Virus record (IMG/VR): IMGVR_UViG_3300015261_000155
Span: 1-46,679 of that record
Length of the DNA: 46,679 nt
Source of the DNA: a virus
Reading direction: 5' to 3' (one strand)
In this document: positions 11,844-21,358 of the stretch, piece after piece
Layout: each line of letters opens with the position of its first letter
Numbering within the stretch: position 1 is the stretch's first letter
The notes under the pieces: generated by a model
The model's database searches: none
Told to the model about the DNA's origin: nothing
What the model saw: only the letters and a program-made list of their open reading frames with translations
Made by a program: the position numbers and the translations under genes

Positions 11844-11860
11844 GTGGAGTGGAGACCACC

Positions 11861-12691
11861 ATGAATTTAGATAGCATCGTTAAATTTTTCGCGCCGAAAG
11901 GCATGCATATTTCTGACAGCGTAAGGGCTACAGCAAGCGAACAGCTGACTGTAACGGATGTAATGGCTGCACTCGGTATGACGCAGGCCGACGCTGGCAT
12001 TGGGCTGGCAATGTTTTTGGGAAAGGCCGGGGTAAGCGCACAGGATAAAGAGGCGGCGATCCGCTGGCTGTCAGAATATGCGAAAGAACACGTCCCGCTG
12101 GCTATTCGTCGTGCCGCCGGGAAGAAATTACCGTTGTGCATGCTGTTGCTGGCGAAGTACGCCTATAACGATTACGCCTCATCAGCGGCTGACACCGTCG
12201 ACTGCCCTAAGTGCGCCGGAAAGGGCCTGATCAACACCACCTGCAAAATCACTAAAAGCCATTACACAATGAAGCTGCCTGAGTTCGCCAAAAAACTGGG
12301 GCAGTCACCATCGGATTTTGAGTCCTTCCGTGAAGTAGAGGAAGCAAAGCAATGCCTGTGCTCTAAATGTAACGGTAAAGGTAAGCTCAGTAAGCGCTGT
12401 CAGTGTGGGGGGACAGGGAAAACAATGGATCGGGAGGCCACGGAGTTCCATGGCGTGCCGGTTTATAAAGAATGTAAACGTTGCGAAGGCAGAGGATATA
12501 GCAGACCTAAATCTTCAGTGGCGTACCGTGGGATACTCGCCCAGTTACCGGGTCTGCCTGAGAGAACGTGGCGTTACAGCTGGAAGCCTTTCTATGAGAG
12601 CCTTGTCACCCGATGCTTTCAGGAGGAAAGCTATTCTGACGTACAACTTCGTCGGGTTACAGGATCGCCAATGTTGAGCGATATCGCATAA
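11861..12691 (+). CDS. Q: Q-type late antiterminator
   Basis: Encodes 276 residues of the phage-82-type antitermination Q family, which loads onto RNA polymerase at the late promoter. The middle third has four Cys/Gly motifs like those of the DnaJ zinc domain: CPKCAGKG, CSKCNGKG, CQCGGTGK and CKRCEGRG. They presumably bind zinc. The N-terminal half is helical (VTDVMAALGMTQADAGIGLA). The C-terminal end GILAQLPGLPERTWRYSWKP is typical of Q. GTGGAG precedes the ATG at 11861. It is the last gene of the right early operon. Confidence 0.82.
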   Translation: MNLDSIVKFFAPKGMHISDSVRATASEQLTVTDVMAALGMTQADAGIGLAMFLGKAGVSAQDKEAAIRWLSEYAKEHVPLAIRRAAGKKLPLCMLLLAKYAYNDYASSAADTVDCPKCAGKGLINTTCKITKSHYTMKLPEFAKKLGQSPSDFESFREVEEAKQCLCSKCNGKGKLSKRCQCGGTGKTMDREATEFHGVPVYKECKRCEGRGYSRPKSSVAYRGILAQLPGLPERTWRYSWKPFYESLVTRCFQEESYSDVQLRRVTGSPMLSDIA

Positions 12692-12879: not shown

Positions 12880-12907
12880 TTGTAGTCATGCGAGTATCAG
12901 TTAAAAT
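12880..12907 (+). promoter_or_regulatory. Promoter of the accessory membrane gene
   Basis: TTGTAG (12880-12885), 16-bp spacer and TAAAAT (12902-12907), about 30 bp before the start codon of the 556-residue gene. Together with the terminator at 14624 it gives the gene its own transcription unit, the usual arrangement of a moron. Confidence 0.55.
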
Positions 12908-12936
12908 AGTGAAAAATCCTTTTTAGACAATCGACT

Positions 12937-14607
12937 ATGGCTGATGCATGCAACGAGTTTTTTTGCTTAGTAAACCTTGACCCCGAAGGTGCTAAAATAT
13001 TCGGTTTTTCGGAGTTTTTAGCAGGATTAGCCCTCATGGTCTTAGCTTGGACCATGGCTGATACAAGGTATCGCTTCAGGATTAGGACGGCACCGATTCC
13101 TCTTGAAATAATTACATTCTGGGTTGTCTCTATTATAGGTTGTTTAACGATAATGACTGACCTATGGCGAGCGAACGGCCTTCCTGTCATAAAGGGTAAG
13201 CTAATTAGTCCTGCCGGATGGCAGGCATTATTAGCTGGAATTTTTTTCGTAACGTTTCTTAATTGGGTTTGGTTTGCATTCATCAAACCATCCAAATATG
13301 GAAAATTAACTAGCAAGAGATATATAGCAGTAGTATATGAATACGTACTTAGAGGATCGAAACATGATCTTGCAGTGGTGGCAGATGAACTTGCAAGATC
13401 CTCACAAAATTTAATTTTTTTTGCCACTGACTTTGATAATAAAGCTCCAGATGAGGACGTATTAAGAAAATTGCCTCATGTGGAAGCTATCGCCAATGAT
13501 ATGCTAACCTTGATTTCAGATAAAAGATTTTGCAAAGCGGTAATTGAGTCATCGCAAAATCTTGCGTTGAGATTATTTATTGAGATTGAAAAGTCAAAAA
13601 AGTATGGGGTTGTGCTTGGTATATTTTCCAAAAACATATTAACGGAAGCTATAAAATATCAAGATTCATTTTTATATCACGAGTCTGATTTCTTTGAATC
13701 TGGATTTTTTGGTTCAAACAGGCCATTGAGCAGAGCACTCTTCGGAAATGCTATAATGGTTGAAAAACTTGAAGTGACATTTGATGTCAGCTTTGAATTT
13801 GAAAAAACTTGGACTATTAAAGAGTTACAGGCTTATGTGCGTGCATTTCTGGTTTTTTGCATAGGTTACATTAAGGAGGGCTCACCTCGGCACTCCTTCG
13901 TATTAACAAGAACAATTGGAATTATTGTTCAAAAGTCTAGTTCATTACACACGGTTAATGGGGTTGCTAACAGTTGGGATTCCGAGCCGGTTCAGACTCT
14001 TGGAGTGATCCTTAGATTTTTGAAAGATGCTGTAAAAATGTTAGATGAAAGGGAAAAGCCTTATAATCATACATTGCGGATTAGAGAGCGCTATGCTTTT
14101 CCAAATCATAGTATTTACGATACTTTTTCTAAAGCAATGTATGATGTAATCCATAATGCATCATATATTAATAATCCTTGGTGGGATTGTTGGTCTATTC
14201 ATCACAATACTATCCTTGAATCCGTGTTTGATTTTTACTCAAAGCCGGGTAGGGCAAGTAGAATAATACAGCATAAATTGCGTCGCCAAATTTACGATGA
14301 AATAACTAGAATGGAAGTCTTCCCGAATTTTCAAGGAGCGCGCATCCTTGGTTTTTGTTTGTTTACTATGGGCTTTCAAGTAAGCAAGGAACATTCAGGT
14401 GAAAATGTTTATGCATTACACAAGGTTATTATCAAATGGGTGAGGTCGAATTTTAAGACTCTACACCAAAGGAATTCGAAAGTAAGCTCCGCTTGTTTGT
14501 TTACATCAATTTCCTACGACGAAGAAAACAATCGGCTGGTTCGTGTTTACGAAGCAAGAGGACTGAGTGAACATGATAAATATGAATACTTTTATTTAGA
14601 TAACTAA
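12937..14607 (+). CDS. Large membrane protein of unknown function, accessory moron
   Basis: Encodes 556 residues. Three hydrophobic spans are visible near the N-terminus: about 24-41 (FSEFLAGLALMVLAWTMA), 53-75 (PLEIITFWVVSIIGCLTIM) and 93-115 (WQALLAGIFFVTFLNWVWFA). A ~440-residue soluble domain follows, rich in aromatic and charged residues, with segments such as SSQNLALRLFIEIEKSKKYG, WDSEPVQTLGVILRFLKDAV and NPWWDCWSIHHNTILESVFD. I recognise no catalytic motif. The gene is strikingly A/T-rich, uses rare codons, and has its own promoter and terminator between Q and the lysis region, where lambdoid phages carry lysogenic-conversion genes. No good ribosome site precedes the ATG. A defence or exclusion role is plausible but unproven. 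Confidence 0.8.
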   Translation: MADACNEFFCLVNLDPEGAKIFGFSEFLAGLALMVLAWTMADTRYRFRIRTAPIPLEIITFWVVSIIGCLTIMTDLWRANGLPVIKGKLISPAGWQALLAGIFFVTFLNWVWFAFIKPSKYGKLTSKRYIAVVYEYVLRGSKHDLAVVADELARSSQNLIFFATDFDNKAPDEDVLRKLPHVEAIANDMLTLISDKRFCKAVIESSQNLALRLFIEIEKSKKYGVVLGIFSKNILTEAIKYQDSFLYHESDFFESGFFGSNRPLSRALFGNAIMVEKLEVTFDVSFEFEKTWTIKELQAYVRAFLVFCIGYIKEGSPRHSFVLTRTIGIIVQKSSSLHTVNGVANSWDSEPVQTLGVILRFLKDAVKMLDEREKPYNHTLRIRERYAFPNHSIYDTFSKAMYDVIHNASYINNPWWDCWSIHHNTILESVFDFYSKPGRASRIIQHKLRRQIYDEITRMEVFPNFQGARILGFCLFTMGFQVSKEHSGENVYALHKVIIKWVRSNFKTLHQRNSKVSSACLFTSISYDEENNRLVRVYEARGLSEHDKYEYFYLDN

Positions 14608-14623
14608 TCTTTCAATATTTAGT

Positions 14624-14647
14624 AAACCGCCATTGGGCGGTTTTTTT
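14624..14647 (+). terminator. Intrinsic terminator after the accessory membrane gene
   Basis: ACCGCC-ATTG-GGCGGT followed by a run of seven T residues, 19 bp after the stop codon. Confidence 0.85.
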
Positions 14648-14686
14648 ATGCCTTTCATTCTCTGCGTCACGCTCGGCGCATTTCAA

Positions 14687-14770
14687 CCACAGAGCCTTTC
14701 AGAGGTGAGCCAGAGTGATGGTCGGTGTGACCGTCTCTGTGGGCTGACCATTTCTGAGCGCTGGCTCACC
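14687..14770 (+). promoter_or_regulatory. Folded leader of the TerB gene, possible pseudoknot
   Basis: Perfect inverted repeats interleave: CCACAGAG (14687-14694) with CTCTGTGG (14735-14742), and GGTGAGCCAG (14704-14713) with CTGGCTCACC (14761-14770). Inside are ATGGTC (14718-14723) with GACCAT (14746-14751), and a competing GGTC/GACC hairpin at 14720-14732. The first two helices cross, which means a pseudoknot or two alternative folds. It ends 19 bp before the terB start. Confidence 0.5.
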
Positions 14771-14789
14771 CCCTAAAAGGAAAGTCACC

Positions 14790-15215
14790 ATGTTTGGTAT
14801 CTTCAAAAAGAAAGCCCGTAAAGCCGTTGTCGAAGTAAAGAAAATGGAAAATCGCGATGCGGTCGAAGCTACTGTGTGGGGCGCTTACTCCATAGCATAT
14901 GCAGACGGTACCTGTGATGCGAAAGAAATCGCCGTGCTGGAGAAAACCATCTCAGCATTACCAGCATTCGCACCGTTCGCCGGTGAGATCGCGCAGATGA
15001 GTAGCAACATTCGCGCACGTTACGAAGCATCGCCGCGTTCTGCTAATGCCCAGGCACTGCGTGAACTGGCGGACGTTGCCGGTACTGACGATGCGGTTAA
15101 CGTTCTTTGTCTCTGCCTGGATATTGCCGACCACGATGGGATCGGCGAAGAAGAAGAGGCGCAGTTGAAGAAAATTGCGCAGGCGCTTCAGTTGCCGTTG
15201 GATCAGTACCTGTGA
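14790..15215 (+). CDS. TerB-family protein
   Basis: Encodes 141 residues of the TerB tellurite-resistance-associated family, an all-helical acidic fold that binds metal. Segments are MFGIFKKKARKAVVEVKKME (basic start), WGAYSIAYADGTCDAKEIAV and LCLCLDIADHDGIGEEEEAQ. The two acidic loops (ADGTCDAKE and ADHDGIGEEEE) are the family signature. A single terB without the rest of a ter operon is common in phages of this kind and need not confer tellurite resistance. AAAGGAAAG precedes the ATG. A folded leader lies upstream, and the next gene overlaps its stop. Confidence 0.85.
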   Translation: MFGIFKKKARKAVVEVKKMENRDAVEATVWGAYSIAYADGTCDAKEIAVLEKTISALPAFAPFAGEIAQMSSNIRARYEASPRSANAQALRELADVAGTDDAVNVLCLCLDIADHDGIGEEEEAQLKKIAQALQLPLDQYL

Positions 15216-15367
15216 TCGGTAAGCTCCGCTGGGCTGCCGCCGCGGTACTCTTGTTCCTGGTGGTGGCTATCGACTTCACAGGAAAGATGATGTCGATCCT
15301 GGCAGACGGCGTGCTGGTGGCCGGAGCTATCGTATTACTCTGGCCGCTTGTAAGAGCCAGCAAATAA
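15212..15367 (+). CDS. Small two-span membrane protein, 51 residues
   Basis: The ORF starts with GTG overlapping the terB stop (GTGA) and ends at 15367. It contains two hydrophobic segments: WAAAAVLLFLVVAIDF (about 7-22) and SILADGVLVAGAIVLLWPLV (about 28-47), with basic ends. Overlap implies coupled translation with TerB, so the two may act together at the membrane. I do not recognise a family. The inverted repeat AAAGGCA/TGCCTTT at about 15375-15396 follows but has no clear T-run. Confidence 0.6.
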   Translation: MIGKLRWAAAAVLLFLVVAIDFTGKMMSILADGVLVAGAIVLLWPLVRASK

Positions 15368-16158: not shown

Positions 16159-16539
16159 ATGTCCGAACCTGTAACCGGGTCTGTTGCAACTGCGAGCGCC
16201 TTAACCGGTGCCAGCCTGTATGGACTGCTGACCGGCACTGATTATGGTGTCGTGTTCGGCGCGTTCGCTGGTGCCGTTTTCTACGTGGCCACCGCAGCAG
16301 ACCTGACGATTATCCGTCGATCTGCTTACTTCATCGTTTCCTATTTCGCCGGGGTATACGGTTCCGGGCTGGTGGGCTCCATGCTCGCCAGTGCCACTCG
16401 TTACAACGACAAACCTCTTGATGCCCTGGGTGCGGTTCTTCTTTCCGCGCTGGCTATCAAGACACTCACATTCTTCAGTGAGCAGGATCCGCTGTCGCTC
16501 TTGCAGAGGTGGAGAGGAGGAACCAATGGTAATAAGTGA
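16159..16539 (+). CDS. Putative holin
   Basis: Encodes 126 residues with at least three hydrophobic spans: about 12-32 (SALTGASLYGLLTGTDYGVV and following), 35-50 (AGAVFYVATAADL) and 56-78 (AYFIVSYFAGVYGSGLVGSM), then LGAVLLSALAIKTLTFF. The C-terminus is charged. It matches putative phage holins found directly before a second small membrane protein and a GH19 endolysin. Holins form the inner-membrane lesion that releases the endolysin. GAGGGGG precedes the ATG. It overlaps the next gene by 14 bp. Confidence 0.75.
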   Translation: MSEPVTGSVATASALTGASLYGLLTGTDYGVVFGAFAGAVFYVATAADLTIIRRSAYFIVSYFAGVYGSGLVGSMLASATRYNDKPLDALGAVLLSALAIKTLTFFSEQDPLSLLQRWRGGTNGNK

Positions 16540-20920: not shown

Positions 20921-21097
20921 TTATCCTCCGATGCATTTACATTCAGACGGCAAGAAATCCAGCCCGCAATACGGGCATTCAAGAGATAAATCTTTTCGCA
21001 TTCTTCCTGCTTTCTGGTCTGCGATCTGAGAGCACCTGGGGCAGGTGACATGGACGGGGCGCTCTTTGAACTTTCTAAGTCCGCTGGTGTACGACAA
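20921..21097 (-). CDS. Small zinc-ribbon protein A
   Basis: Encodes 58 residues: MSYTSGLRKFKERPVHVTCP, RCSQIADQKAGRMRKDLSLE, CPYCGLDFLPSECKCIGG. Two CxxC knuckles (CPRC and CPYC, 22 residues between) form a classic zinc ribbon, with basic residues between. The start is TTG, with GGAG about 9 nt upstream; no ATG is in frame before the first knuckle. It is a paralogue of the gene at 21197. Similar small zinc proteins exist in cryptic E. coli prophages, but the function is unknown. Confidence 0.6.
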   Translation of the reverse strand: MSYTSGLRKFKERPVHVTCPRCSQIADQKAGRMRKDLSLECPYCGLDFLPSECKCIGG

Positions 21098-21196: not shown

Positions 21197-21358
21197 TTAC
21201 CGTTCCTGAGGAAGAAAGAAGTGCCCACATTTCGGGCATATACAGGTAATGTTCTTTCGGATTTTGCTGCCTCTTTGTTCCATTACGTGAGAGCAGTGTG
21301 GACAGTTAACTTTAACTGGCTTGTCCATGAACATCTTGAGGTCATCGAAAATAGTCAT
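21197..21358 (-). CDS. Small zinc-ribbon protein B
   Basis: Encodes 53 residues: MTIFDDLKMFMDKPVKVNCP, HCSHVMEQRGSKIRKNITCI, CPKCGHFFLPQER. The CxxC pairs (CPHC, CPKC) align with protein A, and both proteins end with FLP followed by Q/S-E. AAGG precedes the ATG at 21358. That ribosome site overlaps the end of an 8-codon minigene directly upstream, which suggests translational coupling. Function unknown; the fold suggests nucleic-acid or RNA polymerase binding. Confidence 0.7.
   Translation of the reverse strand: MTIFDDLKMFMDKPVKVNCPHCSHVMEQRGSKIRKNITCICPKCGHFFLPQER

Follow-up and report, generated by a model that had tools for sequence, protein, structure and literature searches.

Among the closest described systems is SieA of phage P22, an inner-membrane protein of 162-164 residues, which has three predicted spans and prevents the injection of DNA (PMC10883804). 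P2/P4-like prophages have hotspots in which two conserved phage genes flank 1-5 kb of interchangeable and often antiviral cargo (Rousset et al., 2022; PMC9122126), and in lambdoid phages cargo genes are placed downstream of the antitermination gene Q (PMC6266700). Single-gene membrane defences borne by prophages are already known.

The gene described here encodes a 556-residue membrane protein and lies in a 46,679-nucleotide stretch of DNA from a temperate virus of gut-type bacteria (IMG/VR record IMGVR_UViG_3300015261_000155; hereafter, the window). Like SieA, the protein is prophage-encoded and has three predicted membrane spans; however, SieA lacks a large soluble domain (PMC10883804), whereas the protein of the window has one of 437 residues, and no sequence relation between the two was seen. 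The logic that we propose for it, in which a sensing part would act through a conserved membrane part of several spans, recalls the transmembrane effectors of CBASS and Pycsar, as well as RexA-RexB, but here sensor and membrane part would form a single chain, neither a cyclase gene nor a RexA-like partner adjoins the gene in the window, and PADLOC returned no match. Its location between Q and a TerB-like gene resembles the P2/P4-like hotspots in that exchangeable cargo is held between conserved phage genes (PMC9122126), but the Q-TerB interval of lambdoid phages is a different slot, and its cargo, in the examples examined, is not mainly antiviral.

Cargo of the Q-TerB interval

An earlier note on this DNA had placed the gene in a known cargo slot of lambdoid phages, between Q and the lysis genes, and both points hold, with the refinement that genes for a TerB-like and a DUF3927/TciB-like protein precede that of the holin (Table 1). 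The interval between Q and TerB is empty or nearly empty in Klebsiella phage 1 LV-2017, in Escherichia phages Fostie and LMessi, and in E. coli UMNK88 and CFSAN004176. Among the slot loci compared (loci are given L numbers throughout), L024, L025, L048, L049 and L055 are empty, and L023, L026 and L050-L053 contain other cargo: an HNH gene with a 176-aa ORF in CharmingMan, two ORFs in Kp4866-6 that by sequence resemble a DNA methylase and an HNH gene, tRNA genes in E. coli E2 and RM14723, iraM in M8, and ompC (encoding an OmpC-type porin), a methyltransferase gene and tRNAs in 504838. Judged by these comparisons, cargo varies in the Q-TerB interval of lambdoid phages, which may be empty or may hold tRNAs, a methylase with an HNH gene, iraM, a porin or the 556-aa gene. 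Related phages lack the latter at this site, as is characteristic of a moron. Because the slot also accommodates non-defence cargo (tRNAs, iraM and the porin), position alone is no argument for a role in defence.

Table 1. Features of the Q-TerB interval and its borders; positions are those of the window.
Feature	Position	Strand	Remarks
Antitermination protein Q	11849..12691	+	PF03589, E 1e-44; left border of the slot
Candidate promoter TTGTAG-16-TAAAAT	12880..12907	+	Conserved with TTGAAG-16-TAAAAT of L003
556-aa gene	12937..14607	+	ATG start; three N-terminal membrane spans and predicted cytoplasmic helical solenoid; PHROG 25374 over residues 137-555
Conserved membrane module	12994..13290	+	Residues 20-118; invariant K20, E26, D42, R44, R48, T74, W77, W95, Q96, W110
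Soluble part	13291..14604	+	Residues 119-556; predicted all-helical solenoid and small C-terminal beta element; more variable
Intrinsic terminator	14624..14650	+	8-bp hairpin (14624-14643) and T run; part of the slot
TerB-like protein	14790..15215	+	PF05099 / phrog_632; right border of the slot
DUF3927/TciB-like small protein	15212..15367	+	Right-hand block; start approximate, in the frame of ORF 15107-15367
Holin-type protein	16159-16539		PF16931; follows the TerB-like and DUF3927/TciB genes

Several further observations concern the slot and the window at large. The tRNA genes in the slot of E. coli prophages form clusters of three to four (Ile/Lys/Arg; Ile/Arg/Thr/Gly), situated at L050:4217-4460, L052:3666-3976 and L053:4217-4460. 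The approximately 140 non-coding bases 5′ of TerB (14650-14789) are conserved in E. coli prophages and in many phages (80-89% identity among the best matches), and they have the look of an internal inverted repeat (GGTGAGCC..GGCTCACC), a regulatory RNA leader being possible. Elsewhere in the window, an A/T-rich stretch that immediately precedes a glycosyltransferase-like gene contains two neighboring ORFs on the minus strand (20921-21097 and 21197-21358). The small proteins that they encode are similar and zinc-ribbon-like, with two CxxC pairs in each (CPRC..CPYC and CPHC..CPKC), and the two ORFs seem to have arisen by tandem duplication.

Evidence that the gene is real

The reading frame, which starts with ATG, is open throughout its 556 codons, and its base composition deviates from that of its surroundings, as had been remarked in the earlier note and as is usual for morons: its G+C content is 37.2% (GC3, 32.6%) versus 52.2% for the window, whose lowest-G+C full 1-kb block (13001-14000) falls inside the gene. 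Two other IMG/VR viral contigs (L001 and L002) contain the same DNA in identical or near-identical copies (99.9% identity), and a different phage (L003) carries a homologue that is 74% identical and has a G+C content of 36.1%, with a different antiterminator-like gene upstream and lysis-type genes downstream (identities read from sequence). Between the gene of the window and that of L003, dN is 0.17 and synonymous sites are saturated, indicating strong purifying selection; and because dN lies far below dS, and distant full-length homologues exist, we regard 12937-14607 as a real gene. That it might be non-functional passenger DNA or a decaying gene could be argued from its rarity, its A/T-richness, its lack of a known function and the stops that interrupt two relatives (L005 and L030), but such an explanation is scarcely credible given an intact full-length frame, this substitution pattern and the conserved promoter described below.

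Promoter and terminator

The pattern TTGNAG-16-TAAAAT occurs once in the window (0.04 matches expected), at the promoter that the earlier note had assigned to the gene, and L003 has TTGAAG-16-TAAAAT just 5′ of the start codon of its homologue, the DNA farther upstream being unrelated to that of the window. An automatic scan of the window did not report this promoter, and it stands as a candidate on the strength of its conserved motif, in keeping with the promoters that morons have of their own. The terminator fared differently: The earlier note had taken 14624-14647 to be the gene's own, and the hairpin is real, found together with its T run by automatic scan, but the cargo-free phages L024 and L025 also have a hairpin at this place, and they share the T run and the sequence that come after it. 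It therefore belongs to the slot, its assignment to the 556-aa gene was rejected, and the gene lacks the terminator of its own that a moron would be expected to have. By analogy, the slot terminator may be comparable to the terminator that is overridden by Q in lambda.

After induction, Q-modified polymerase would presumably read the gene, which encodes a membrane protein upstream of the holin, and both of these points would be compatible with a part in the lysis or late programme of the phage, as a holin, an antiholin or a lysis regulator. But the phage already possesses a holin-type protein (PF16931), the gene is missing from related phages, and its relatives occur in chromosomal islands and at sites remote from lysis genes; moreover, the 556-aa protein matches no Pfam family or holin PHROG and the family has no constant place in the lysis block. 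A lysis function is thus very improbable, and we rejected it.

A conserved membrane module joined to a variable soluble part

Hydropathy and AlphaFold2 agree on the three N-terminal spans that had been noticed earlier, the hydrophobic segments covering residues ~20-40, 54-78 and 92-116 and the predicted helices residues 23-50, 56-80 and 92-116. The N-terminus is acidic, and both the loop at 42-55 and the stretch after residue 117 are basic; following the positive-inside rule, this charge pattern predicts that the N-terminus faces outward and that the C-terminal part is cytoplasmic. AlphaFold2 models reached a mean pLDDT of 82 for the full protein (alignment of 15 members) and, for the soluble part alone (437 residues; 20 members), a mean pLDDT of 86 and a pTM of 0.86. 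In the model, residues 126-519 are arranged as successive helices, followed by three short strands, and we read the helical stretch as a predicted solenoid. Two fold searches of the PDB gave no significant match: As the comparison with HEAT/ARM repeats also brought out, the best matches were helical repeat proteins, none with E < 0.001 and all with TM-scores < 0.4. Matches to karyopherin and beta-catenin folds, most with TM-scores < 0.3, were taken to mean "helical solenoid" only. A viral fold library contained no significant match for the 556-aa protein, and neither a catalytic motif nor a known effector fold was found in it.

The two parts differ in how strongly they are conserved. Median pairwise identity is 65% over residues 20-118 versus 38% over residues 119-556, and in each of the 105 pairs formed by 15 members the membrane module is the better conserved of the two parts, a contrast biased by the fact that these members were partly collected by motifs of the membrane module. 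The charged and polar residues that lie within the spans or at their edges (K20, E26, D42, R44, R48, T74, W77, W95 and Q96) are invariant in all 15. Members retrieved by whole-profile searches (L036, L037, L038 and L039) carry the same membrane-module motif, and the divergent Planctomycetota member L040 has only an RFKI remnant of it. An antisense ORF of 176 aa (12897-13427, minus strand) overlaps the promoter and the membrane-module region, and a similar one is present in L003 (4868-5365); it probably only mirrors the conserved sense strand, since constraint on that strand, here in the best conserved section of the gene, leads one to expect its partial conservation in L003.

Because a conserved membrane module is joined to a diverging solenoid, we favor a reading in which the former is an effector and the latter a sensor. 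The same module, acting in the membrane, would also fit superinfection exclusion, that is, a direct, SieA-like block of DNA entry or of another early step of related phages, without cell killing and with the solenoid as a platform that binds phage entry proteins or host factors; three spans and coding by a prophage are shared with SieA of P22 (PMC10883804). Yet a large cytoplasmic domain is missing from SieA, to which the protein showed no sequence similarity, and the spread of the family over three phyla and into non-prophage islands suits a general defence better than the exclusion of one type of phage. We consider exclusion unlikely, although it is the chief competitor of the reading that we favor, ahead of a fitness role.

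A rare and patchy family

The protein belongs to PHROG 25374, a group without assigned function whose profile is matched almost from end to end (positions 1-401 of 406; E 2.3e-70), the match being confined to the soluble part (residues 137-555). No match to the 556-aa protein was obtained in Pfam, NCBIfam or PADLOC, no PADLOC-DB model fits it (the best value, E 0.023, was for one relative), and a sequence search of the PDB returned nothing significant; YacP, designed helical repeats and a globin, at E 0.04 or worse, were set aside as noise from helical composition. The soluble domain of about 440 residues, described in the earlier note as having no recognizable motif, thus remains without a match in Pfam, NCBIfam, PADLOC or the PDB, but it does have a PHROG and a family that extends over three phyla. 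Within the libraries and literature searched (subscription papers and preprints lay outside the search), no described family accounts for the protein, and PHROG 25374 is not named in that literature.

Motif and profile searches recovered approximately 20 distinct family loci, mostly 27-74% identical, in Gammaproteobacteria, Planctomycetota and Acidobacteriota, a sample that is biased in that the iterated searches used motifs of the membrane module. Members occur in prophages and phages of IMG/VR, in Luteimonas terricola, in a Sedimentisphaerales MAG, in an Acidobacteria MAG, and in further Xanthomonadales and Planctomycetota. The family is rare and patchy: Along the Luteimonas lineage it was present in 5/399 of the order (Xanthomonadales), in 1/369 of the class and in 1/399 of the phylum (the single case being the seed in both), and in the other two phyla in 3/294 (Planctomycetota, the phylum of the Sedimentisphaerales MAG) and 1/297 (Acidobacteriota, again the seed). 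It is absent at the DNA level from 5,426 E. coli genomes, and tblastn with two family members detected nothing in sequenced phages or plasmids. E. coli is also where the DefensePredictor search was conducted, according to its published description (PMC13092281).

Genomic settings and neighbors of the relatives

Only some relatives occupy the position seen in the window. Both the window gene and the L003 homologue lie between Q and lysis genes; in L007-L009 the relatives are found between the large terminase and portal genes, adjoining a T5orf172 protein (recognized in L007 by Pfam/PADLOC), and in L010, L012, L015-L017 and L022 beside tail genes or integrases. Others are located in islands flanked by tRNA genes, namely tRNA-Met (L036), tRNA-Ser (L037 and L029) and tRNA-Leu (L041), with integrase-like ORFs read from sequence, and those of L004 and L040 are surrounded by ordinary chromosomal genes.

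Several of these settings include defence-type genes, as recognized by Pfam/PADLOC: an ApeA-type HEPN protein and DUF5677 near the L037 relative, an ApeA N-terminal domain near L017, FRG/PDC-S15 near L015, an OLD/GajA-like ATPase (OLD/Gabija-like) near L016, an Mrr_cat endonuclease near L019, HsdS and RhuM near L039, and PDC-S31 near L010. The relative of L022 has a serine recombinase as a neighbor. The prophage fragment that harbors the 74% identical homologue (L003) also encodes, on the minus strand (L003:2011-3369), a 452-aa protein in which GrpB (PF04229) is fused to a 4TM membrane effector of PADLOC (PDLC00724). Such a neighbor was found at at least 8 of the ~20 distinct loci, which, the neighbors having been picked by hand, is an indication rather than a tested enrichment. 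The control, small and differently chosen, drew on remote regions of six of these prophages, where 20 long ORFs yielded 3 PADLOC matches (one a transposase cross-match, the others HerA and a methylase that are adjacent in one prophage). No recognized defence neighbor was present at L004, L005, L012, L018 and L040. In the far part of the L019 prophage (L044:5-2822), a HerA-like protein is encoded beside a DNA methyltransferase, which, added to the Mrr-type gene close to the homologue, may give this prophage two defence-like clusters.

These settings bear on whether the gene might instead serve lysogenic conversion or host fitness in a way that has nothing to do with phage defence, for example through stress resistance or envelope modification. 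Cargo such as iraM, the OmpC-type porin and tRNA genes is normal in the same slot of E. coli prophages, and two relatives (L004 and L040) sit in ordinary chromosomal surroundings; but defence-type genes recur close by in unrelated phages and islands, the distribution is patchy and rare, and neither a metabolic nor an envelope gene was seen to be linked to it, which together make a fitness role improbable. The earlier note had offered defence, exclusion or conversion as alternatives; the first two fit the recurrent defence neighbors at these loci, the unrelated prophage positions and the islands with tRNA and integrase genes, conversion has become less likely, and the slot position on which the proposal had partly relied no longer counts in its favor.

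A possible sensor and effector in one chain

Taken together, mobility, patchiness, defence neighbors, coding by prophages and a promoter of its own favor anti-phage defence as the likely role of the gene. On balance, we think it probable, if by no wide measure, that the 556-aa gene is a moron-type accessory gene which a temperate lambdoid phage carries and which the lysogen transcribes from the gene's own promoter, and that its product is an inner-membrane protein that shields the lysogen from other phages, most likely by a mechanism that combines a solenoid sensor with a membrane effector. In such a mechanism, the variable cytoplasmic solenoid would bind a component of an incoming phage, and binding would trigger the strongly conserved three-span module, in which charged and polar residues are invariant; the module would then disturb the inner membrane and so abort infection. 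It is the conservation of the three-span module that suggests its action on the membrane.

More tentatively, as a possibility that we hold with less than even confidence, the relatives would constitute a single-gene abortive-infection family, in which one chain unites a conserved three-span effector and a fast-evolving helical solenoid sensor, and which is distributed on prophages and islands in at least three phyla. A family of this build would be a new variant among prophage-borne single-gene membrane defences. If this is true, PADLOC-DB 2.0.0 lacks a compact defence family whose single gene encodes both sensor and membrane effector in one chain, and the contrast in conservation between its two parts points to residues worth mutating. 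The Q-TerB interval of lambdoid phages, as a variable cargo site, deserves a systematic survey.
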